Below the pieces are notes generated by a model that saw only the letters and a list, made by a program, of their open reading frames with translations, was not told the DNA's origin and made no database searches. This document shows, piece by piece, positions 5,220-17,283 of a stretch of 64,000 nucleotides of DNA. The stretch comes from Sphingomonas carotinifaciens (GTDB taxonomy: Bacteria > Pseudomonadota > Alphaproteobacteria > Sphingomonadales > Sphingomonadaceae): contig NZ_WSUT01000005.1 in NCBI RefSeq assembly GCF_009789535.1, positions 1,673,501-1,737,500 on the forward strand, written 5' to 3'. A program made the position numbers and the translations under genes. Numbering within the stretch: position 1 is the stretch's first letter; every line of letters starts with the position of its first letter.

Positions 5220-6374
5220 TTACAGGTCGCGCGCGTAGACGTTGTAGGTCTTGTTGACGCGGCTCTGGATCGTCTCGGCGATCGAGCGCATCCCCTGATT
5301 GTCATCAAGGATCCAGCCGATCTCGCCCCGGCTGGCGCCGTATTTGGTGACCGAGGCGCGGCGGATATATTCGATCATCATGAAGGCCAGCTGGCTGGCC
5401 ATGCGCGAGGACTGCAGATCCTTGCGCACGCCCATCAGGGGCACGCGCATCGTGCGCACCTGCGGTCTGCGCAGCCACAGCAGCAGCTTGGCCCAGCCGA
5501 AGGGCAGCAGGCTGCCGTTCAGCGGCTTGATCGCCTCGTTCAGGTCGGGCAGCGTGATCATGAAGGCGACGGGCTTGCCGTCCAGCTCGGCGATGCGGAT
5601 CAGGTCGTTGAACACGATCGGCTTCAGCTTGACGCCGACATCCTTGATCTCGGGCGGGGTGAGGGGGACGAAGCCCCAATTGTCCGCCCAGGCATCGTTC
5701 AGGATGTCGAGGATGATCGCGGCCTCTTCCTCGAACCGGGCCTTGTTCACCTCGCGCACGCGGATGCGCGGGTTCTTCTCGCCCGACTGGATGATCCGCT
5801 TCACGATGGGCGGAAATTCCTGGGTGATGTCCAGTTCGTAGGTGAAGAGCTGCTTGATCGTGGTGTAGCCCGCGCCCTCGATCCAGCCGCGATATTCGGG
5901 CTTGGCATGGCCCATCATGATCGTGGGCGCATGGTCATAGCCATCGACCAGCAGGCCGGGTTCTTCCCAGATCGATTGCGACACCGGCCCCATCGCCCGG
6001 GTCATGCCCTGCTCGCGCAGCCAGCCTTCCGCCGCCGCCAGCAGCGCCTGGAAAACATCCTGCCGCTCGGCATCCATCAGGCCCCATTGGCCGATTCCGG
6101 GACCGAAGCCCTGTTCGGCGGGCATGGTCAGCGCCAGCGTATCGATATGCGCGGAAATGCGCCCCACCACGCGCCCCCGCTCCTCGGCCAGGAAAAGCTG
6201 TGCCTTGGCATGGCTGTACCAGCCGTTCTTCTCAGGGGTGATCAGGCCCAGCGCCTCGCCTTTTAGCGGCGGTACCCAGTTGGGATCGTCGGCATACAGG
6301 CGGAAGGGCAGGTCGACGAACGCCTTGCGGTCGCGCTGCGTCAGCACCGGTCGGATCGTCAACGTGTCGGCCAT
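5220..6374 (-). CDS. GNAT-fold N-acyltransferase; candidate bacterial ceramide synthase
   Basis: A 384-residue soluble protein with the opening FVDLPFRLYADDPNWVPPL and an acyl-CoA N-acyltransferase-like fold. It contains GRISAHID, MGPVSQSIWEEPGLLVDGYDHAP and a C-terminal GWILDDNQGM segment. Proteins of this type have often been labelled N-acetyltransferase or dATP pyrophosphohydrolase. In Caulobacter an acyltransferase beside spt was shown to be the bacterial ceramide synthase that N-acylates the sphingoid backbone. From memory of that family, and from serine palmitoyltransferase, ACP and a CerR-like reductase 6-9 kb away, I infer the same role here. The exact reaction is not shown by sequence alone. 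Confidence 0.65.
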   Translation of the reverse strand: MADTLTIRPVLTQRDRKAFVDLPFRLYADDPNWVPPLKGEALGLITPEKNGWYSHAKAQLFLAEERGRVVGRISAHIDTLALTMPAEQGFGPGIGQWGLMDAERQDVFQALLAAAEGWLREQGMTRAMGPVSQSIWEEPGLLVDGYDHAPTIMMGHAKPEYRGWIEGAGYTTIKQLFTYELDITQEFPPIVKRIIQSGEKNPRIRVREVNKARFEEEAAIILDILNDAWADNWGFVPLTPPEIKDVGVKLKPIVFNDLIRIAELDGKPVAFMITLPDLNEAIKPLNGSLLPFGWAKLLLWLRRPQVRTMRVPLMGVRKDLQSSRMASQLAFMMIEYIRRASVTKYGASRGEIGWILDDNQGMRSIAETIQSRVNKTYNVYARDL

Positions 6375-6503
6375 GGTCGTTCCCGCAATCGATAAGTGTC
6401 GCGCCTCCTAAACGCATCCGTCGATCATAGCGAGTGAGGATTCCGCCGGCCCGCCCGCGGCGCGGCGCTGTAAATGCCACGGTCCCGCCACTATCTCGTG
6501 GCA

Positions 6504-7613
6504 ATGGAAAAGGTCATGGACACCACGATTTCCCTTGCCCGGAGCACCGCAGGCGGTGCCGCTGCGACCAAGGTGCCGCTGCACCGTATCGCGGACGACA
6601 AGACGATGCTGCGGACCGCGGCGGAGTTGACGCGCGACCTGATCGCGCCGCGCGCCGGCGTCTATTGGGCCGACCTGATCGCCTCGGTGGTGATCGGCTA
6701 TGGCGCGCTGGCGGTGGCGGTGACGGCCGGCTCGACCGCGCTGGCGATCGCGGCGGGCGTGGTGTCGATGCTGGCGCTCTACCGCGCGCTCAGCTTCATC
6801 CACGAGATCAGCCACATGAAGCACGCCGCGCTGCCGCGCTTTCGCGGTGGCTGGAACGCGCTGGTCGGCGTGCCGATGCTGACCCCCTCTTTCATGTATG
6901 AGGGGGTCCACAACCTGCACCATGCCAAGACGCGCTATGGCACGGTCGAGGATCCGGAATATCTGCCGCTGGCACTGATGAAGCCGTGGACGCTGCCGGT
7001 GTTCATCCTGGTGTCCGCGCTCGCGCCGCTCGGCCTGCTGATCCGTTTCGCGATCCTGTCGCCCCTGTCGCTGGTGATCCCCGGCTTCCGCCGCGTCGTG
7101 GTCGAGCGCTACTCGGCCTTGGCGATCAACCCGCAGTTTCGCCGCCGCATGCCTGAGGGTGAGGCGGCGCGGATGTGGAACCGCGTCGAGACCGCGGCCA
7201 GCATCTGGGCGATCGCGATCGTCACCATGGTGGCCACCGGCACGATCCCGCTGCGCGGCTTCCTGATCGCTATGGCGATCGGATCGGGCGTGGCGGTGGT
7301 GAACCAGGTCCGCACGCTGGTCGCGCATCTGTGGGAGAATGACGGCGAGGCGATGACGGTGACCGCGCAGTATCTCGACTCGGTCAACGTGCCGCCGCCG
7401 GCGCTGCTGCCCGCGCTCTGGGCGCCGGTCGGCCTGCGCTATCACGCGCTGCATCACCTGTTGCCGGGTGTGCCCTATCATAATCTGGGCGAGGCGCACC
7501 GCCGGGTGACCGCCGCGCTGGAGCCGGGATCGCCCTATCACAAGGCGAGCTACAAGGGACTGCCGGGACTGGTGGACAAGATCGTGCGCAGTACGATGAC
7601 GGTTCGCCGCTGA
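6504..7613 (+). CDS. Membrane fatty-acid desaturase family protein
   Basis: A 369-residue integral membrane di-iron enzyme. The three histidine boxes are visible: HEISHMKH, HNLHH and the C-terminal HALHHLLPG. They are separated by hydrophobic segments at roughly residues 55-100, 165-210 and 235-265. Members desaturate or hydroxylate acyl chains, using electrons from a separate donor. Lying between the putative ceramide synthase and the LptFG-spt cluster, it may act on the sphingoid base or the ceramide acyl chain, but an ordinary phospholipid desaturase is equally possible. The start at 6504 or the ATG at 6516 cannot be separated. A good terminator follows. Confidence 0.82.
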   Translation: MEKVMDTTISLARSTAGGAAATKVPLHRIADDKTMLRTAAELTRDLIAPRAGVYWADLIASVVIGYGALAVAVTAGSTALAIAAGVVSMLALYRALSFIHEISHMKHAALPRFRGGWNALVGVPMLTPSFMYEGVHNLHHAKTRYGTVEDPEYLPLALMKPWTLPVFILVSALAPLGLLIRFAILSPLSLVIPGFRRVVVERYSALAINPQFRRRMPEGEAARMWNRVETAASIWAIAIVTMVATGTIPLRGFLIAMAIGSGVAVVNQVRTLVAHLWENDGEAMTVTAQYLDSVNVPPPALLPALWAPVGLRYHALHHLLPGVPYHNLGEAHRRVTAALEPGSPYHKASYKGLPGLVDKIVRSTMTVRR

Positions 7614-7639
7614 ACGCGGTCGCGGTGCAGGATTGATCG

Positions 7640-7669
7640 GGGGGAGTGGCGGTGCCGCTCCCCTTTTTT
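7640..7669 (+). terminator. Rho-independent terminator of the desaturase gene
   Basis: GGGGAGTGGC and GCCGCTCCCC pair in a 10-bp stem with a three-base loop, followed by six T residues. It is placed 26 bases after the desaturase stop. Confidence 0.85.
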
Positions 7670-7690: not shown

Positions 7691-7858
7691 TGTCTCTCGA
7701 TACGGCATCTCGATACGTGGCTTGGCGCCACTACTCGATGCCTACTCGAGACGAACGGATAGTTTGGATCAATTACGCCGGTCAGCTTATCTCCGTTCGT
7801 CTCGAGTAGCCGTCGAGTAGCAGCGAAGCTGCGTATCGAGACGGCGTATCGAGAGACA
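7691..7858. repeat. 168-bp palindromic element (long imperfect hairpin), copy 1
   Basis: Two arms of about 67 bases (7691-7759 and 7792-7858) are near-perfect reverse complements around a loop of about 32 bases. Each arm contains TCTCGATACG, a second CTCGATACG, CTACTCGA and CTACTCGAGACGAACGGA. Nothing coding is seen inside. A half copy with the same words occurs at 62226-62333, so this is a dispersed non-coding element of the genome. It lies between the convergent desaturase and lptG. Confidence 0.85.
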
Positions 7859-7905: not shown

Positions 7906-9003
7906 CTATTCCTCGGTGCGGATCAACACCGCTTCGCCGATCAGCAAGAACAGCAGAAACGGCGCCCAGGCAGCGAGAAAGGGCGGGTAGGCGCCGAGAT
8001 TACCCATCGCCAGCGCAAAATTGTCGGCGACGAAATAAGCAAAGCCCAGCGCCATGCCGATGATCGCGCGGACGAACAGCTTGCCCGAGCGCGCGACGCC
8101 GAACGCGGCGACGGCGCCGAGCAGCGGCATCAGCACGGCGGAGAGCGGACCGGACAGCTTGTGCCACAACGACCCCTCCAGCGCCTTGGTGGGGCGGCCG
8201 GCTTTCTGAAGGTCGTCGATCGCCTCCGACAGGCCACGGAACGACAGGCTGTCGGCGTCGACGCCGGCCAGTGTCAGTTGTTCGGGGGTGACGCCGTTGC
8301 CGACGACCATGGATGCGAAGCGGGTGACCTGACCGCTCGCCACGTCGAAGCGGGTGCCGGGGCCGATCCGCCAGGCATTGTTCTCGCGCTGGCCGCGCGG
8401 TGCACGCACGATGCTGCGCAGCGAGCCGCCGGTGCGGTCGTACAGGGTGACGCCGCCAAGCTGCGTCGCGGCGCCGCGGCCGCGGATCAGGTCGACCTGC
8501 AACAGGTCGTCGCCGTCGCGCACCCAGACGTTGGAGCGGTCGCCGCTGTCGATCGGCAACGGGCCGTAATCGACCTTTTGCCAGGCGTTGAGCGTGGCGG
8601 TCGCGCGCGGGGTGATGCGGTCGTTGAACGCGAAGCTGATCACCGCGACCCCGGCACTGGCGAGCAGCAGCGGCGCCAGCACCTGATGCGCGGACAGGCC
8701 GCCCGCCTTCAGCGCGATGACCTCCGAATTCTGGTTCATCGTGATCAGCGTCAGGATGGTGCCGAGCAGCACCGAAAAGGGCAGCACGAAGGAGATGATC
8801 TGCGGCGCGCGCAGCGAGACGTAGCGCCACACCTCGCCGTCGCCATTGCCCGGCACCGCCAGGATGTTGCCCGATTCGGACAACAGGTCGAGCGCCTGGA
8901 GGACCAGCACGAGTGCCGCCATGATCGCAAAGGTGCGGACCAGGAACAGCTTGCCCATGTAGATGGCGATGGTGCGCGACGGGAAGATGGCGGACAGCCT
9001 CAT
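7906..9003 (-). CDS. lptG: LptG-type permease of the YjgP/YjgQ family
   Basis: Inner-membrane permease half of the LptB2FG exporter, which extracts a lipid from the inner membrane and passes it to LptC/LptA. The 365-residue protein has the family layout: about three transmembrane segments at the N-terminus (residues 15-130), a periplasmic beta-jellyroll (about 140-265), then three more (about 275-360). Its ATG overlaps the lptF stop by four bases. The canonical substrate is LPS, but Sphingomonas lack LPS and use glycosphingolipids, and this pair lies in the sphingolipid operon. A glycosphingolipid substrate is therefore plausible, as inference. LptG rather than LptF follows from gene order and length. 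Confidence 0.85.
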   Translation of the reverse strand: MRLSAIFPSRTIAIYMGKLFLVRTFAIMAALVLVLQALDLLSESGNILAVPGNGDGEVWRYVSLRAPQIISFVLPFSVLLGTILTLITMNQNSEVIALKAGGLSAHQVLAPLLLASAGVAVISFAFNDRITPRATATLNAWQKVDYGPLPIDSGDRSNVWVRDGDDLLQVDLIRGRGAATQLGGVTLYDRTGGSLRSIVRAPRGQRENNAWRIGPGTRFDVASGQVTRFASMVVGNGVTPEQLTLAGVDADSLSFRGLSEAIDDLQKAGRPTKALEGSLWHKLSGPLSAVLMPLLGAVAAFGVARSGKLFVRAIIGMALGFAYFVADNFALAMGNLGAYPPFLAAWAPFLLFLLIGEAVLIRTEE

Positions 9004-10223
9004 GCCTTGGTCTCCGCTTCACGCGCGCGCATCTCGCGGGCGCGGCGGCGCGGCCCCGGCAGCCAGCGGGTGAACAGTTTGGCCAGCTTGGCGAAGCTGC
9101 GCTCCAGGATGCCGATCGGCTGGCCGCCGGGGACATAGGCGGTGACGTAGTACATCCAGACGACGATGCCTGCGAAGATCGCGAACGGGCCCCATAGCGC
9201 GATCAGGGGATCGACACGGCCCAGCGCGCCGATGTCCGCGGCATACTGGTTCACCTTGTGATAGGTGACGAGCATCACGATCGACAGGAAGACGCCGAGT
9301 GCGGAGGTGGATCGCTTCGGCGGAATACCCAGCGCCACCGCAAGCAGCGGCAGCAGGAACATCGTCACCACCTCGACCAGCCGGAAGTGGAATTCGGCAC
9401 GGCTGCCGTCGCGCGCTTCCTCCGACTGTGCCTCCTGCCCGTGACGGGCGAGTTCGGGCAGGGTAAACTCCAGGTCGCGGCCGCCGCGCTGGCGGAAATT
9501 CTCGAACTTGGGCAGGTCGATCGGCAGGTCGTGGCTGGAGAAGGTCAGCACGCGCGGCGCGCGAAAGCTTTGCCGGTCGTGGATCAGCGTGCCGTTGGTC
9601 AGGCGGAAGATGATGACGTTGGGATCGTCGGTGGCAAGAAAGCGGCCACGCTCCGCGGTGACGCCGATCCAGTCGCCCTTGCCGGTCTGCGCATGAACGA
9701 AGATGCCGGACAGGTCGCGACCCTTGTCGCGGCTTTCCTCGATGCGGAGCGTCATGCGGTCGCCCAGATGGGTGAACTCGCCCACCTTGATCGAGGCGCC
9801 GAGCGCGCCGGTGCGCAGTTCGTAGCGCAGCCCTTCGTAATAATAACGGGCGATCGGCTGCACATAGCCGACGATCGCCAGGTTGAGCGCGGCCAGCACG
9901 ATCGCATACAGATAGGGTACGCGCAGCAGCCGGGTGTAGCTCATACCGACGCCGCGCATCACGTCCAGCTCCGACGAGGTGGCGAGCCGGCGAAAGGCGA
10001 GCAGGATGCCCAGCATCAGCCCGATCGGAATGCCCAGTCCCAGATATTCGGGCAGCAGATTGGCCAGCATGCGCCACACCACGCTGATCGGTCCGCCCTG
10101 CGTCGCGACGAAGTCGAACAGGCGGCGGATGCGGTCCAGCACCAGCAGCATCGCGGCGATGACCAGCGTCGCGAACAGCGGCAACGCGATCAGCCGGGCC
10201 ATATAGCGGTCGATGGATTTCAT
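9000..10223 (-). CDS. lptF: LptF-type permease of the YjgP/YjgQ family
   Basis: Partner permease of LptG, 407 residues. The beginning MKSIDRYMARLIALPLFATL is typical of the family. N-terminal membrane segments are followed by the ELDVMRGVGMSY coupling-helix region that contacts the LptB ATPase, a periplasmic jellyroll (roughly residues 140-270), and three C-terminal membrane segments including ALGIPPKRS. A basic cytoplasmic tail (GPRRRAREMRAREAE) extends beyond the usual end. The ATPase (lptB) and lptC are not in the window. It lies 85 bases after the hybrid kinase on the same strand and shares a four-base overlap with lptG. Confidence 0.85.
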   Translation of the reverse strand: MKSIDRYMARLIALPLFATLVIAAMLLVLDRIRRLFDFVATQGGPISVVWRMLANLLPEYLGLGIPIGLMLGILLAFRRLATSSELDVMRGVGMSYTRLLRVPYLYAIVLAALNLAIVGYVQPIARYYYEGLRYELRTGALGASIKVGEFTHLGDRMTLRIEESRDKGRDLSGIFVHAQTGKGDWIGVTAERGRFLATDDPNVIIFRLTNGTLIHDRQSFRAPRVLTFSSHDLPIDLPKFENFRQRGGRDLEFTLPELARHGQEAQSEEARDGSRAEFHFRLVEVVTMFLLPLLAVALGIPPKRSTSALGVFLSIVMLVTYHKVNQYAADIGALGRVDPLIALWGPFAIFAGIVVWMYYVTAYVPGGQPIGILERSFAKLAKLFTRWLPGPRRRAREMRAREAETKA

Positions 10224-10308
10224 GCGGTGGCTAAGGGTGCTCGGGCGGGCGGGGAGTTCGGCTATACGAACGCGAGGCTCGCGCGTCAGCCCCAATTCTG
10301 CGCGCCCG

Positions 10309-12252
10309 TCACTCCGCCGCGATGGAGGAGGGCAGGCGGTGCGCCGCGCGCGCCATGGCGGCGGCGATGCCGCGCTCCAGCCCGGCCAGGGTGAAGGGCT
10401 TGCGGAGCAGCTCATGGTCGCCGAACACCGCCGCATTCGCCTCGCCCGCGAACCCCGTGACGAACAGGACGGCAAGGTCGGGGAAGCGGCCGGCCAGACC
10501 GGCGATCATTTCCGGGCCAGTCTGGCGCGGCATCAGCACGTCGGAGATGACGAGCTGGATGTCCGGGTTGGCGGCCAGCATCGCCGGCGCTGCCAGCGGA
10601 TCGTCGCAGGGCAGGGCGTGGTGGCCCAGTTCCTCCAGCGCGCCCATCGTGGCGGCCAGCACGCGGGGATCATCCTCGACCACCAGCACCGACAGCGCGG
10701 CGGGGGGCATGGGGGCGGGGGCGGCCGGCTCGACCGGCACGGCGGCGGGCGCCGCGCTGCGGTCGCGCGGCAGGTACAGGGTGACGGTGGTGCCCGCGCC
10801 GGGCGCGGTGCGCAGCGCGACATCGCCGCCCAGCTGGCCGACAAGGCCGAAGATCTGGCTGAGGCCAAGGCCGGTGCCCTTGCCGACGGGTTTGGTGGTG
10901 AAGAAGGGTTCGAACACGCGCTCGGCCACTTCGGGGGGCATGCCGCTGCCGGTGTCGGTCACCGACAGCACGGCATAGTCGCCGGCGACGCACTGGCCCA
11001 CCGCCCCCTCGGCGAGCGTGATCTCGCCACTGGTGATGGTCAGGATGCCGCGGCCCTCCATCGCGTCGCGGGCGTTGACCGCCAGGTTCAGAATGGCGTT
11101 TTCCAGTTGCACGCGATCGGCATGGACGCGCCAGCCGGTGGTGCGATCGTCGACGATCAGCTCGATCGCGTCGCCAAGCGTCCGGTCGAGCAGATCGGTC
11201 ATGCCGGCGACCAGCGCGGCAGGCAGGATCGCCTGCGGCTTCAGCGACTCCTCGCGGCTGAAGGCGAGCAGCTGGCGGGTGAGCGCGGCGGCGCGGTTCG
11301 CGCCCTCCGTCGCGCTGTCGATATGGCGCTGAAGGGCGGCATGGTCGCCCGGCGCGGCGCGGCGGGCGAGTTCGAGCCCTCCCAGAACGACGGCGAGCAT
11401 GTTGTTGAAATCATGTGCGATGCCGCCGGTCAACTGGCCCACCGCATCCATCTTCTGCGCCTGGCGCAGCTTGGCCTCCTGCACCTTCAGCTCGGCCGTC
11501 GCCTCGTCCACTGCCATGGCCAATTCCTCGGCCCGTGCCCGCGCCGCCTCCGCATCCGCCCGCGCCGCCGCCCGCTCGCCCACCGCCTGCACCGTCATCC
11601 AACCCAGCACGATGGCCCCCGCAACGATCAGGATGCCGAACCCTGCCAAACCCCCCGCGATCCGACTCGACCGCGCCACCGACCCGCTGGCGTCCGCCGC
11701 CCGCTCGGCAAGCAGCGCGCGTTCGGAGCGGATGATGCCGTCGAGCGTGCCGGTGATCTGTGCCAGCGAGCTAGCCTGCCGCGCCTGATAATAGCGGGCA
11801 TAGGCCAGGCTGTTCTTGTTGTAGGTGGTGGCGAGCGCGATGGCGGACAGTTCCTCGCCGCGCGTGTCATAGGCGTCGCGCAGGCGGTCGATCAGCGGGC
11901 GCTGCTGCGGATTGTCGTAAGTGATGTGTTCGAGGCGGTCGATCTGCGACCGGGCCAGCGTCCATTCGTCGAAATAAAGCTGGCCAAGCTGGCGGTCGCC
12001 GGAAATCACGTAGCGACCCAGCGACGCCTCCGACCGGGCGATCGTGCCCGCCAGCGTGCGCGCCAGGATCATCACGTCATAGGAATGCTGTTGCAGGTCC
12101 AGCGCGCGGTCGCGCTGGCGATTGGCGTGGCCGAGCGTGACGATCAGCATCACCAGCGTCACCGCGCCGGCCAGCCCCATGACGACGAGCGCGATGGTGC
12201 GCCAGGTCGTGCCGCCCTCGCGGCCGACGGATTCGGCTTCGGTCCGCTCCAC
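10309..12252 (-). CDS. CHASE3-domain hybrid histidine kinase
   Basis: A 647-residue membrane sensor. After a first transmembrane helix (about residues 18-40) comes a periplasmic CHASE3-type helical domain (about 45-195), a second membrane helix near 200-225, then HisKA with phospho-acceptor His280 (GGIAHDFNNM). The HATPase domain follows with NAVNARDAM, DTGSGMPPEV and GKGTGLGLSQ, and a C-terminal receiver has the phospho-acceptor Asp571 (VISDVLMPR). There is no output domain and no response regulator nearby. The start is GTG at 12252, just before the first membrane helix, because further upstream would run into spt. Being 49 bases downstream of spt suggests co-transcription; the signal sensed is unknown. 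Confidence 0.85.
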   Translation of the reverse strand: MERTEAESVGREGGTTWRTIALVVMGLAGAVTLVMLIVTLGHANRQRDRALDLQQHSYDVMILARTLAGTIARSEASLGRYVISGDRQLGQLYFDEWTLARSQIDRLEHITYDNPQQRPLIDRLRDAYDTRGEELSAIALATTYNKNSLAYARYYQARQASSLAQITGTLDGIIRSERALLAERAADASGSVARSSRIAGGLAGFGILIVAGAIVLGWMTVQAVGERAAARADAEAARARAEELAMAVDEATAELKVQEAKLRQAQKMDAVGQLTGGIAHDFNNMLAVVLGGLELARRAAPGDHAALQRHIDSATEGANRAAALTRQLLAFSREESLKPQAILPAALVAGMTDLLDRTLGDAIELIVDDRTTGWRVHADRVQLENAILNLAVNARDAMEGRGILTITSGEITLAEGAVGQCVAGDYAVLSVTDTGSGMPPEVAERVFEPFFTTKPVGKGTGLGLSQIFGLVGQLGGDVALRTAPGAGTTVTLYLPRDRSAAPAAVPVEPAAPAPMPPAALSVLVVEDDPRVLAATMGALEELGHHALPCDDPLAAPAMLAANPDIQLVISDVLMPRQTGPEMIAGLAGRFPDLAVLFVTGFAGEANAAVFGDHELLRKPFTLAGLERGIAAAMARAAHRLPSSIAAE

Positions 12253-12301
12253 GGAAGGGAAGCTATCGCAGTCGGTGGTGCGAGGGAAGCGGGCGAAAGG
12301 C

Positions 12302-13564
12302 TTAGGCGATGACGCCCACGGCCCGGCCCGCATCGGCGAACATGCCCAGCACGCGTTCGATCTGGGCGGGGGTGTGTTCGGCGCAGAGCGAGCAGCGGAG
12401 CAGGAAGGTGCCGGCGGGGGTGGCGGGGGGGCGGGCAAGATTGACGTAGAGGCCGGCGTGGAGGAGCGCTTGCCACATCATGGCGGCCTGCTGCTGGTCC
12501 TCCAGGATGACCGCGATGATGGCGCTGTCGGCCTGTTCGGTGCCGAGGCGGAAGCCGAGCTGGCGGAGGCCGGCGTGGAGCGTGCGGGCGTTGGTCCAGA
12601 GTTGCGCGCGTTTGGCGGTGGCGGTGGCCAGCTTGCGGATCGAGGCGGCGGCGGTGGCGACGACCGAGGGAGGGAGCGAGGCGGTAAAGATATACGGGCG
12701 GCAAGCCAATCGGATCGCTTCGAATTTCGGGTGGTTCGACACGCAGAAACCGCCCACCGTGCCGACCGATTTGGAGAAGGTGCCGACGATGAAGTCGACA
12801 TCGCCCTCGCACCCTTGCGCCTCGTACACACCGCGCCCGTTGGGGCCGTAGAAGCCCATCGAATGCGCCTCGTCGGACAGCACCATCGCGCCGTGCTTCC
12901 TGGCGACCGCGACCATCTCCTTCAGCGGAGCGATGTCGCCGAGCATCGAATAGACGCCCTCCAGCACGACCAGCTTGCCCGCGTCCTTGGGCAGGCGACC
13001 GAGCCGCTTGTCGAGGTCCTCGACCGAATTGTGGCGGAAGCGGACGATTTCGGCGACGCCCTGCTTGCAGCCGTCATAGATCGACGCATGGCTGTCCGCG
13101 TCGAGGATGACGTAGTCGCCCTTGCCGGCGAGCGTCGAGATCATGCCGAGATTGGCCATATAGCCGGTCGAGAAGACGATCGCGCCGGTCGTGCCGTAAA
13201 AGTCGCGCAGCGCCTGTTCGACCTCCATATGGTCCTGGAAGGTGCCGTTCAGCATCCGGCTGCCGTTGGTGCCCGAGCCGAACCGGTCGAGCGCGGCATG
13301 GCCGGCGGCGATGACGTCCGGGTCGAAGGTCATGCCCATATAATTGTAGGTGCCGAGCAGGATGGTGTCGCGGCCCTCGATCACCGCCTCGGTCGGCGAC
13401 TTCACCTGTTCCATGACGATCGCGAACGGATCGGTGACCCCGGAATCGAGCAGCGCCCGGCGCTCGGCGATCAGGCCGTCGAATTTCGACATCAGGTCGC
13501 GGTCGGGAGCGACCGGGGCGGGATCGGCGGGGAGGGCGTGGGGCTGGGCGGCGGCTTCGGTCAT
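12302..13564 (-). CDS. spt: Serine palmitoyltransferase
   Basis: PLP enzyme of the alpha-oxoamine synthase family that condenses L-serine with palmitoyl-CoA (or acyl-ACP) to 3-ketodihydrosphingosine, the first step of sphingolipid synthesis. The 420-residue length equals that of the soluble homodimeric Sphingomonas paucimobilis enzyme, and the sequence reads almost the same. Visible landmarks are GTYNYMG, GSGTNGSR, DADSHAS with the PLP-stacking His, DEAHSMG, and the Schiff-base Lys in GTFSKSVGTVGG. It follows the acyl carrier protein gene by 77 bases, a gap holding a tandem 15-base repeat. It is one of the best-supported genes here and a hallmark of sphingomonads. Confidence 0.96.
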   Translation of the reverse strand: MTEAAAQPHALPADPAPVAPDRDLMSKFDGLIAERRALLDSGVTDPFAIVMEQVKSPTEAVIEGRDTILLGTYNYMGMTFDPDVIAAGHAALDRFGSGTNGSRMLNGTFQDHMEVEQALRDFYGTTGAIVFSTGYMANLGMISTLAGKGDYVILDADSHASIYDGCKQGVAEIVRFRHNSVEDLDKRLGRLPKDAGKLVVLEGVYSMLGDIAPLKEMVAVARKHGAMVLSDEAHSMGFYGPNGRGVYEAQGCEGDVDFIVGTFSKSVGTVGGFCVSNHPKFEAIRLACRPYIFTASLPPSVVATAAASIRKLATATAKRAQLWTNARTLHAGLRQLGFRLGTEQADSAIIAVILEDQQQAAMMWQALLHAGLYVNLARPPATPAGTFLLRCSLCAEHTPAQIERVLGMFADAGRAVGVIA

Positions 13565-13572
13565 GTCACAAG

Positions 13573-13602
13573 GTTTCCGCAATCGGGGTTTCCGCAATCG
13601 GG
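13573..13602 (-). repeat. Tandem 15-base repeat in the leader before spt
   Basis: The plus strand reads TTTCCGCAATCGGGG twice in succession (13574-13588 and 13589-13603). On the spt transcript each unit contains GCGGAAA, a possible ribosome-binding sequence, and the second unit ends about 10 bases before the spt ATG. A GC-rich hairpin (CGCCCGC/GGGCGGG) lies just upstream. The repeat could duplicate the ribosome-binding site or be a neutral slippage product. Confidence 0.75.
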
Positions 13603-13641
13603 GACGTTCGCGCCCGCCGGAACCGGGCGGGCGCGGGGCGA

Positions 13642-13887
13642 TCAGTCCTGCTTCAGCTTGACGACGGCATCGACGAGCTGGCCGACGGTTTCGATCTCCG
13701 CCTGCATGTTCATGGTGATGATGATGTCGAATTCGTCCTCGATCGCGGCGACGAAATCCATCACGGTCAGGCTGTCCCATTCGAGTTCGCCCTGGAAGGT
13801 GGTCGTCTCGCTCAGCGCCACGCCCTTCTTGTTGAAGGGGGCGATCTGGGCGGCGACGGTGTCGAAGATGGTCTGGCGGTCGCTCAT
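13642..13887 (-). CDS. Acyl carrier protein dedicated to sphingolipid synthesis
   Basis: An 81-residue acidic protein of the phosphopantetheine-carrier family. The attachment Ser39 lies in LEWDSLTVMDF (DSL motif), followed by the acidic helix VAAIEDEFDIIITMN. The start has a good ribosome-binding sequence (AAAGGA). In Caulobacter an ACP encoded beside spt supplies or holds the acyl substrate for serine palmitoyltransferase, and the same order is seen here, so a dedicated role rather than general fatty-acid synthesis is inferred. It does not read like the highly conserved housekeeping AcpP. Confidence 0.9.
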   Translation of the reverse strand: MSDRQTIFDTVAAQIAPFNKKGVALSETTTFQGELEWDSLTVMDFVAAIEDEFDIIITMNMQAEIETVGQLVDAVVKLKQD

Positions 13888-13942
13888 GATGATCCTTTCG
13901 CGGAAGCCGCATGGCATCCAAATGCGGCGTCTTTCCGGCGGC

Positions 13943-14839
13943 CTATAGCAAACCGGCGTCGCGATACCACCGGGCGGTGGCCGCGAGCCCGTCGGCGGTG
14001 GCGATGGCGGGCGTCCAGAGCGACGGATCGGGGCGCCGGGCGGGGTCGGCGGTCCAGTCGGGATGGCAGAGATAGCCGACCCGGTCGGGGGTCAGCTTAG
14101 CGCCCGCACCGCGGAAACGGCGGTCGAGCCGCGCGCCGAGGCGCAGCAGCGCGGCCGGCAGGTGCATCGGCAGCACGCGGGTGCCGACCGCGCGGCCGAT
14201 CAGCCGGGCGAGATCGGCATGGGTCAGCACGGCGCCGTCATCCACCTCCAGCACCGCAGGCGGGCCGGGGGTGAGCCCGAGTGCCACGATCAGGCGAGCG
14301 AGATCCTCCACCGCGACCAGCGACAGGCGACCGGGTGGCGGCAGCAGGGCGAGGCCGCGCCGCGCCAGGCGGAACATGTCGCGCATCTCGGTATCGCCGG
14401 GGCCATAGACGCCGGTGGGGCGGACGATCGTCCAGTCCCGGTCGCTTTCCTCCACGAGCGTCTCCGCCTCGCGCTTGGACCAGCCATAGTTGGACAGTTG
14501 CGGCTCGCGTGCGGAGAGCGAGGAGACATGGACGAAGCGGGCGACGCCGGCGGCGCGCGCGGCGGCGAGCATCGCGGCGGTGCCGTCGATATTGCCGGCC
14601 GCGAAGCCCGCGCGATCGGGCGCGTTGACGACGCCGGCGATGTGGAGAACGGCATCCGCGCCGCCAGCCAGCGTCGCCAGCGTGTCGGGGCGGTCGAGCG
14701 CGCCCTCCACCCAGGTCACGCCGTCCTGCGGCGGTTGCGGACGGCGGGTGAGGGCGCGGACCCGGTGGCCGCGGCCAAGCGCCTGTTCCACCACGACGCG
14801 GCCGACAAAGCCGGTGGCGCCGGTAACGCCGAGGATCAC
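13943..14839 (-). CDS. NAD-dependent epimerase/dehydratase family oxidoreductase, CerR-like
   Basis: An extended SDR of 298 residues with the nucleotide-binding GATGFVG motif at the N-terminus, a Ser in the VSSLSA strand, and the catalytic YxxxK as YGWSK. In Caulobacter the SDR encoded next to spt and acp is the ceramide reductase CerR, which reduces the 3-keto group after N-acylation. Order and family here match, so ceramide or 3-ketosphinganine reduction is the likely job. The start is GTG, overlapping the proB stop by four bases. A sugar-nucleotide epimerase is the main alternative, but the neighbours argue against it. Confidence 0.82.
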   Translation of the reverse strand: MILGVTGATGFVGRVVVEQALGRGHRVRALTRRPQPPQDGVTWVEGALDRPDTLATLAGGADAVLHIAGVVNAPDRAGFAAGNIDGTAAMLAAARAAGVARFVHVSSLSAREPQLSNYGWSKREAETLVEESDRDWTIVRPTGVYGPGDTEMRDMFRLARRGLALLPPPGRLSLVAVEDLARLIVALGLTPGPPAVLEVDDGAVLTHADLARLIGRAVGTRVLPMHLPAALLRLGARLDRRFRGAGAKLTPDRVGYLCHPDWTADPARRPDPSLWTPAIATADGLAATARWYRDAGLL

Positions 14840-15939
14840 AGCAGCGCCAGATGGTTGCGGTGGACCAGCGCGGCGCGCGGCGCATAGCCGAGGATCGTGG
14901 CCTGCTCGTCCGAACGCCGGCCGAGCAGGCGGGCGGCGTCGGCGGCGTCATATTCGGACAGGCCGCGCGCGATCGTGCCCCCCGGCCCCTCGATCGTGAC
15001 GAGGTCGCCGCGGTCGAAGCGCCCCTCCACCCGCACCGCGCCCGCGGCCAGCAGGCTGCCGCCCCCCGCCAGCGCGCGGGCGGCGCCGGCATCGACATGG
15101 ATCGCACCGCGCGCGGTGAGCCCGCCGGCCAGCCATGCCTTGCGGGCGGGCGCGGCATGGGCGGCGACGAACAGGGTATGGCGCGCCTCGGTGGCGAGCG
15201 GGTGATCGATGCGGCCGCTGGCGATGGCGAGATGGGCGCCCGCGCTGGTGGCGATGCGCGCCGCCGCGATCTTGGACACCATGCCGCCCGACCCCATGCC
15301 GGAGGCCGAGCCGGCATCCGCCATGCCGGCGACCGCATCGATCGCATCGACCCGTGCGATATGGCGCGCGGCGGGGTTGGTGTGCGGATTGGCATCGTAC
15401 AGGCCGTCGACATCGGACAGCAGCACGACGCCGCCGGCACCCGCCGCCTGCGCGATACGCGCGGCAAGCCGGTCATTGTCGCCGAAGCGGATTTCCTCGG
15501 TGGCGACGCTGTCATTCTCGTTGATGACGGGCACGATGCCGAGGCCGAGCAGCCGGCCCAGCGTGGCGGCGGCGTTCAGGTAGCGGCGGCGATGTTCCAG
15601 ATCGTCGAGCGTGACCAGCATCTGCGCCGCCGTGATGCCCTGATCGCCGAGCAGTTCGGCCCAGGTCTGGCTGAGCGCGATCTGGCCGGTCGCGGCGGCG
15701 GCCTGCGCATCCTCCAGGCTGGCGCGGCCGCCCTTGGGCAGCCCCAGGCGGCGCGCACCGAGCGCGATGGCGCCCGAGGACACGATCGCGACCTGCTGGC
15801 CGGCGCGGTGACGTTCGGCAAGGTCGGCAACAAGGCTGGCGAGCCATTCACGCCGCACCGCACCATCGGGGGCGACAAGCAGCGCCGAGCCGATCTTCAC
15901 GACCAGCCGCGTGCAGGAGGAGGGAGGAAACAGCGCCAT
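14836..15939 (-). CDS. proB: Glutamate 5-kinase
   Basis: First enzyme of proline synthesis, phosphorylating L-glutamate with ATP in the cytoplasm. The 367-residue length equals that of E. coli ProB. The amino-acid-kinase domain shows VVKIGSALL, SSGAIALG, NENDSV, GDNDRLAA, LSDVDGLYD and SGGMVSKI. A C-terminal PUA domain (about 275-360) is present. It is the first gene of the minus-strand run and is translationally coupled to the CerR-like gene. That places a proline gene and sphingolipid genes on one transcript, and there is no obvious metabolic link. Confidence 0.95.
   Translation of the reverse strand: MALFPPSSCTRLVVKIGSALLVAPDGAVRREWLASLVADLAERHRAGQQVAIVSSGAIALGARRLGLPKGGRASLEDAQAAAATGQIALSQTWAELLGDQGITAAQMLVTLDDLEHRRRYLNAAATLGRLLGLGIVPVINENDSVATEEIRFGDNDRLAARIAQAAGAGGVVLLSDVDGLYDANPHTNPAARHIARVDAIDAVAGMADAGSASGMGSGGMVSKIAAARIATSAGAHLAIASGRIDHPLATEARHTLFVAAHAAPARKAWLAGGLTARGAIHVDAGAARALAGGGSLLAAGAVRVEGRFDRGDLVTIEGPGGTIARGLSEYDAADAARLLGRRSDEQATILGYAPRAALVHRNHLALL

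Positions 15940-17193: not shown

Positions 17194-17283
<90 letters not shown>

Follow-up and report, generated by a model that had tools for sequence, protein, structure and literature searches.

The window analyzed here, a stretch of 64,000 nucleotides from Sphingomonas carotinifaciens (RefSeq assembly GCF_009789535.1, contig NZ_WSUT01000005.1, positions 1,673,501 to 1,737,500), contains a gene cluster in which an LptF/LptG permease pair is encoded together with enzymes of ceramide synthesis. The genes on the minus strand are, in order, proB, a CerR-like reductase gene, a gene for an acyl carrier protein, spt, which encodes serine palmitoyltransferase (SPT), a CHASE3 hybrid kinase gene, lptF (9000–10223), and lptG (7906–9003). 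Four-base overlaps join proB to the reductase gene and lptF to lptG, and 85 bases separate the kinase gene from lptF, with gene starts assigned by inspection (GTG for the kinase, ATG for lptF). This confirms the arrangement described in an earlier sequence-only reading of the window, which had placed proB to lptG on one strand with gaps below 90 bases or 4-base overlaps; the extent given there was too small, and the cluster goes on past lptG to a desaturase-like gene and a homolog of the ceramide synthase gene cerS (5220–6374), so that synthesis genes flank lptFG on both sides. Both permease subunits are full length and score above curated cut-offs: LptG reaches 257.5 bits with the Pfam model LptF_LptG (PF03739) and 298.3 bits with TIGR04408 (cut-off 240), and LptF reaches 206.3 bits with the Pfam model and 244.3 bits with TIGR04407 (cut-off 230). 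The spt product (12302–13564, minus strand) exceeds the cut-off of NF047603, the NCBIfam model for alphaproteobacterial SPT (806.9 bits against 670). Very probably the pair is an Lpt permease of the sphingolipid type that is now the sole LptFG of this genome, within a lineage that has no LpxC and LpxB matches, and we consider it probable that this single pair exports sphingolipid to the outer membrane by way of a retained Lpt bridge.

The genome (G000; 4.09 Mb in 7 contigs, rated 100% complete) holds one lptF and one lptG by PF03739 search, both in the window. A second pair elsewhere in the genome, which would have spoken against the specialization proposed in the sequence-only reading, was not found. 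Neither LpxC nor LpxB gave a match in a search with control hits in Escherichia coli and Caulobacter (LpxA, LpxD, and the Kdo genes were not searched), and by this search the cell would not make lipid A or lipopolysaccharide (LPS). The bridge and outer membrane parts of an LPS export system are nevertheless present, namely LptB, LptC, LptA, and LptD. Profile searches gave a single match each for LptD and LptA and a single locus for LptC, and an lptC-lptA-lptB-rpoN locus lies elsewhere in the genome (L161), in which LptB was read by sequence and position only. A weak second LptC profile hit falls in the neighboring LptA, and the genome, with its one LptC locus, has no LptC2 of its own. The lptD region consists of pepA on the opposite strand, about 160 bases, lptD, and then surA, pdxA, and ksgA (named by reading), and the same PepA and SurA sequences adjoin lptD in relatives. 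No lptFG lies between pepA and lptD in this genome; the placement beside lptD that accompanies LPS-type pairs is absent here, and lptD, although on the contig that holds the pair, is some 0.94 Mb distant from it.

The same gene content extends across the order. Among 89 genomes from seven families (f1–f7, with f1 the own family and this genome included), LpxC and LpxB gave no match in any (0/89 each, E. coli and Caulobacter giving hits as controls), LptD was found in all 89, LptFG in 87, and a strong SPT in 88; the 89th genome, G013, has only a weak SPT relative, and LptFG is lacking in two genomes, G008 (assembled in 160 contigs) and G031 (in 370). Exactly two PF03739 matches were found in 75 of the genomes. 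Distances between spt and lptFG were taken from one LptFG match per genome, the best among the matches listed, with the place in G001 added from its fetched locus. By this measure 66 of the 86 genomes with both genes have them no more than 10 kb apart, 64 of these on the same strand, with all seven families represented. Random placement is expected to give about 0.6% per genome, as estimated from a span of 20 kb and a genome size near 3.3 Mb; the genomes are related and hence not independent. The proximity of spt and lptFG is more than chance. The best listed lptFG match is on a different contig from lptD in 54 of 87 genomes and at least 117 kb from it in the remaining 33.

Comparison with LPS makers of the class places this arrangement in context. 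Our class sample comprised 67 genomes, G000 and G004 included, with SPT counted at E 1e-80 or better. SPT was found in 11 of them, LpxC was missing from 11, and 8 showed both properties; LpxC is thus missing in 8/11 spt carriers vs 3/56 non-carriers. The two Fisher tests on the class gave p values of 4e-6 (for this comparison) and 0.006, both of which ignore kinship. Three genomes have both SPT and LpxC (G104, G105, and G144), and in two of these, G104 and G105, a second LptFG set accompanies the lptD-linked pair. About 3 kb separates this second pair from spt in G104; the two are on different short contigs in G105, where contig ends hide any linkage. Among the 53 genomes with LpxC and without SPT, 49 have exactly two PF03739 matches, 3 have one, and G102 has four. 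LPS-making Alphaproteobacteria usually have lptFG beside lptD, and this slot is empty here. Rather than sharing the neighborhood seen in the window, which would have told against the proposal, lptFG adjoins lptD in 17/22 loci of genomes with LpxC and without spt (LptD, SurA, and PepA were looked for within about 1.5 kb only), and none of the three was found near lptFG in 34 fetched loci of the order and of other spt carriers. Viewed from lptD, LptG is the neighbor in all five lptD loci of G104, G105, G129, and G144, whose pairs at this place are of the LPS type in our tree, and G132, which is outside the tree; it is the neighbor in 0/14 loci from the order (nine, own included) and from other LPS-less spt carriers (five). 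Two of these genomes, G129 and G132, have no LpxC or SPT match and have kept LptFG next to LptD.

Loci of named Alphaproteobacteria, Gammaproteobacteria, and Nitrospirota also show linkage of spt with lptFG. Named genomes were scanned with SPT as the only query, and of the best 80 loci among the matches listed, 35 contained LptF or LptG and 31 contained both; among loci with full flanks, LptF or LptG was present in 22/42. The flank of Caulobacter sp. HMWF025 (L206) contained no LptF or LptG, also at a loose threshold, and therefore no named Caulobacter pair is in our trees. In E. coli BL21(DE3) the locus (L163:15835-22067) reads aasR, cerR, acpR, and spt, followed by lptG and lptF on the other strand, the first three names following those in the available text of PMC9386255 and PMC11324152. 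This second pair (L163:19921-22067) is annotated as LPS export, and the housekeeping pair is beside pepA. DNA matches in 5,426 complete E. coli genomes recovered spt in 4,088, the second pair in 4,086, and the housekeeping pair in 5,375, some copies being interrupted by insertion sequences; spt and the second pair were found as one place, at least 80% covered, in 4,042/5,426. E. coli DH5alpha retains only a downstream remnant of the region.

The main maximum likelihood tree was built from 56 concatenated LptF and LptG rows, drawn from 62 LptF and 56 LptG sequences after removal of five duplicate loci and of loci without a full LptF or LptG. A clade of 34 rows (support 100/99) unites the pairs of this order with those of the other spt carriers that lack LPS and with the second pair of G104 and that of G105; it stands apart from an LPS-type clade of 20 rows (100/100). 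The window pair is therefore outside the lptD-linked LPS-type clade and groups with the second pairs of LPS-making relatives, as would a Caulobacter-type LptF2/LptG2, although C. crescentus is absent from the tree; its linkage to spt and cerS likewise agrees with the Caulobacter type. A first clade test failed to separate the hypotheses in an unrooted tree and was restated for the approximately unbiased (AU) test, which rejected a tree that joins the pair of this order to the LPS type and leaves the second pairs and the E. coli housekeeping pair on the other side (p 0.0005). Single-gene LptF and LptG trees, from a short search with six long-branch rows left out, show the same split. Single-gene trees also assign to the sphingolipid-type clade the pair of G012 and the extra pairs of G047, G053, and G066, three of the 12 order genomes with more than two matches; no spt, cerS, LptD, SurA, or PepA was found in the stretches fetched around them. 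Second LptFG pairs of three family f4 genomes (L245:4452-6835, L246:3931-6293, and L247:4205-6525) are of the sphingolipid type in single-gene trees and are located away from spt, cerS, and lptD.

An extended tree combined 25 of the 56 rows with 31 named pairs from spt loci. The named alphaproteobacterial pairs group with the window pair, the nearest being that of Sphingomonas sp. Leaf22, with the exception of Nitrospirillum amazonense (L227). This spt-linked pair groups with gammaproteobacterial and Nitrospirota pairs and has a basic LptG residue 40; it may have been acquired by horizontal transfer. The gammaproteobacterial and Nitrospirota pairs from spt loci group with the E. coli housekeeping pair, in a tree that had one gammaproteobacterial housekeeping pair.

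A comparison of LptF and LptG cavity residues with LPS-type proteins had been suggested along with the original proposal; among the LptG contact residues compared here, residue 40 differs. In E. coli, LptG K40 is described in the available text of PMC6744409 as contacting the 4'-phosphate of lipid A. The corresponding residue is arginine in 19/20 LPS-type alphaproteobacterial proteins and is basic in 0/27 proteins of this order and 0/7 other rows of the sphingolipid-type clade. It is aspartate in the E. coli second pair and basic in 1/31 named spt-locus pairs, that of L227; some of these 31 are from this order.

Sphingolipid export is the likely function of the pair based on the gene order, the gene content, the empty slot beside lptD, the clade, and residue 40. 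The sequence-only reading had proposed more narrowly an LptFG specialized for glycosphingolipid. The specialization is supported by the sole pair, the ceramide cluster, the separate clade, and the absence of the pair from the lptD region; as to chemistry, the substrate may be either a glycosphingolipid or a phosphosphingolipid. We posit that CerR, AcpR, SPT, and CerS would make ceramide at the inner membrane, that head-group enzymes encoded elsewhere would complete the sphingolipid, and that a putative flippase would present it at the periplasmic leaflet. LptB2FG, assembled with the LptB, LptC, LptA, and LptD of this genome and powered by ATP, could then lift the sphingolipid into the LptC-LptA-LptD bridge, as happens in LPS transport. 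The ancestor may have had an LPS-type pair next to lptD together with another, of the sphingolipid type, next to spt; loss of lipid A synthesis would have been followed by loss of the LPS-type pair from the lptD region, with the bridge kept running on the sphingolipid-type pair.

Several observations weigh against this reading. A tree in which the second pairs of G104 and G105 are held with the LPS type is not rejected (p 0.16); after removal of six long-branch rows, the test does reject such a placement for the second pair of G105 alone (p 0.005). In the accessible text of PMC5548808, the LptG substitutions K40E/K41E are without effect on E. coli growth, and we are therefore cautious about residue 40, which indicates at most a different head-group environment and is no proof of substrate. 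The position of another contact, LptG K34, is thus non-discriminating: whether LPS-type or sphingolipid-type, nearly all rows from Alphaproteobacteria have aspartate there. G144, which has LpxC and spt, has only an LPS-type pair. G135 has spt and no LpxC, LptFG, or LptD matches, and a spt carrier can therefore do without Lpt; its outer membrane may need another sphingolipid route. This genome is a single contig of 5.4 Mb with spt (G135:C1:1509145-1510392; L094, L128) and a cerS-like gene. Among named spt loci with full flanks, 20/42 have no LptF or LptG within 10 kb, including all 7 betaproteobacterial loci. Within the order, 12/89 genomes exceed two PF03739 matches, and a single pair is therefore not universal. 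Finally, 20/86 order genomes do not show spt and lptFG within 10 kb of each other, 19 of them in f1 and 1 in f5. Nine of these have spt and lptFG on different contigs and could still have them close together, and in one unlinked case (L138) lptFG is still together with the cerS-like and desaturase genes.

These 20 genomes also bear on the strongest alternative, that the Lpt machine exports some other outer membrane glycolipid or a lipid-linked polysaccharide and that adjacency to spt reflects shared regulation only. Because the substrate is predicted here from genes, such a cargo deserves consideration, but we regard it as improbable: a cerS homolog is present in 30/35 fetched loci holding a sphingolipid-type lptF or lptG (two of the 35, L131 and L135, are untyped by the main tree), the linkage to spt spans the seven families and the named loci of three lineages described above, and a second pair lies beside spt in G104 and in E. 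coli BL21(DE3), both of which make LPS.

A role in export for the CHASE3-HisKA-HATPase-REC hybrid kinase (10309–12252, minus strand; Pfam CHASE3, HisKA, HATPase_c, and Response_reg) is also unlikely. The sequence-only reading had the kinase sense the state of the envelope, and through such sensing it could control the exporter, as its strand and small gaps might suggest. It directly follows spt in 15/30 own-family loci examined (from 41 own-family genomes; L046 has a short remnant), but no match was found in 14 fetched loci of families f2–f7 (among them L135, without spt), it is absent between spt and lptF in G051, G004, and G086, and in the Sphingobium loci L203 and L207 it follows spt with no lptFG in the stretch examined. 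The kinase tracks spt within one family rather than lptFG and is a lineage-specific neighbor of spt, and we rejected it as a part of the exporter.

That an ordinary LPS-type LptFG simply moved beside spt and changed substrate without becoming a specialized permease is very improbable, given its rejection by the AU test above, the sphingolipid-type sets found besides lptD-linked pairs in the LPS makers G104 and G105, and the differing LptG pattern near residue 40, even though NCBIfam names the pair LPS export LptF and LptG above cut-offs.

The pair can also be compared with those of E. coli. The window pair resembles the subunits of the E. coli housekeeping system, LptB2FGC-A-DE, in exceeding the LptF and LptG equivalog cut-offs, and its best PDB sequence matches are LptG of 5l75 and LptF of 6mit; unlike that system, it occurs in a genome without an LpxC or LpxB match, away from pepA and lptD, and with an LptG residue 40 that is not basic. 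The second pair of E. coli BL21(DE3) shares with the window pair its linkage to spt, its annotation as LPS export, and an acidic LptG residue 40; however, it groups with the E. coli housekeeping LptFG outside the alphaproteobacterial clade, and it is therefore possibly a separate recruitment. We see about an even chance that sphingolipid-type LptFG is a distinct class that was recruited at least twice, once in Alphaproteobacteria and once in Gammaproteobacteria/Nitrospirota, and that plugs into a common Lpt bridge, beside the LPS permease in LPS makers including E. coli and in place of it in LPS-less orders, where the entire LPS bridge would have become one for sphingolipid.

The basic idea is already published for Caulobacter, and what is new here is the comparative support. 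In the text of PMC11324152 (2024) available to us, Caulobacter crescentus LptC2, LptF2, and LptG2 (CC_1168, CC_1156, and CC_1155) are proposed, untested there, for transport of phosphosphingolipid. The two systems are alike in that lptFG lies in the ceramide synthesis region beside cerS and in the Lpt-like sphingolipid export proposed in that text. They differ in that Caulobacter has LpxC, as our control search showed, and its LptF2 and LptG2 are described there as second versions, whereas the window genome has only the one pair, no LpxC or LpxB match, and one LptC. Orthologs from S. wittichii and Z. mobilis are also listed there, and the genes are described as scattered in Sphingomonadales, in contrast to the close linkage to spt in 66/86 order genomes reported above. 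The words "transport" and "export" are absent from the main text of PMC13028669. Our literature search, with most subscription papers and all of bioRxiv outside it, returned no report that the lptD-linked pair was lost, and none describing the pattern across the order, the residue pattern, or the second pair of E. coli. With LpxC and LpxB in 0/89 genomes, LptD in 89/89, and the permease in a sphingolipid cluster, the order offers a clean system for testing the proposal. If it is true, it would explain how sphingolipids reach the outer membrane, and thousands of genes would have been misnamed "LPS export permease" by automatic annotation, among them the second pair beside spt in about three-quarters of complete E. 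coli genomes.

The remaining genes of the cluster fit ceramide synthesis to differing degrees. The acpR-like acyl carrier protein gene (13642–13887, minus strand), named after acpR in the available text of PMC9386255, matches acyl carrier protein models, all below cut-off, and occurs near spt in nearly all fetched loci with spt. The cerR-like gene for an NAD-dependent reductase (13943–14839, minus strand; Pfam NAD_binding_10 / Epimerase) is near acpR-spt in most fetched loci. The cerS-like gene (5220–6374, minus strand) gave no family in Pfam or NCBIfam searches. Its product shares 41% identity with E. coli YghO across 385 aa, and the available text of PMC9386255 lists yghO with Caulobacter CC_1154 ("aca") as an acyl-CoA N-acyltransferase of ceramide synthesis; we identify it on these two grounds as a ceramide synthase homolog. 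Convergent with lptG is the fatty acid desaturase/hydroxylase-like gene (6474–7613, plus strand; Pfam FA_desaturase, 93.5 bits), which occupies the same place in several own-family loci and possibly encodes a ceramide hydroxylase; a DesA-family hydroxylase acting on Caulobacter sphingolipids is cited in the available part of PMC11324152. At the other end, proB (14836–15939, minus strand; glutamate 5-kinase, NCBIfam TIGR01027, 352.6 bits) was confined, among the fetched loci, to those of the own family, and we rejected a functional link with it; it is probably a neighbor outside the sphingolipid system.

A promoter scan gave 2 sites vs 1.4 expected. The region between lptG and the convergent desaturase gene contains a strong terminator-like hairpin (7639–7665) and an inverted pair of ACTCGAGACGAACGG (7744–7758 and 7793–7807). 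Outside the cluster, a ZIP-like transporter gene, with a Pfam score below the cut-off, has a tRNA-Ser (cga) gene (17194–17283) upstream of it.

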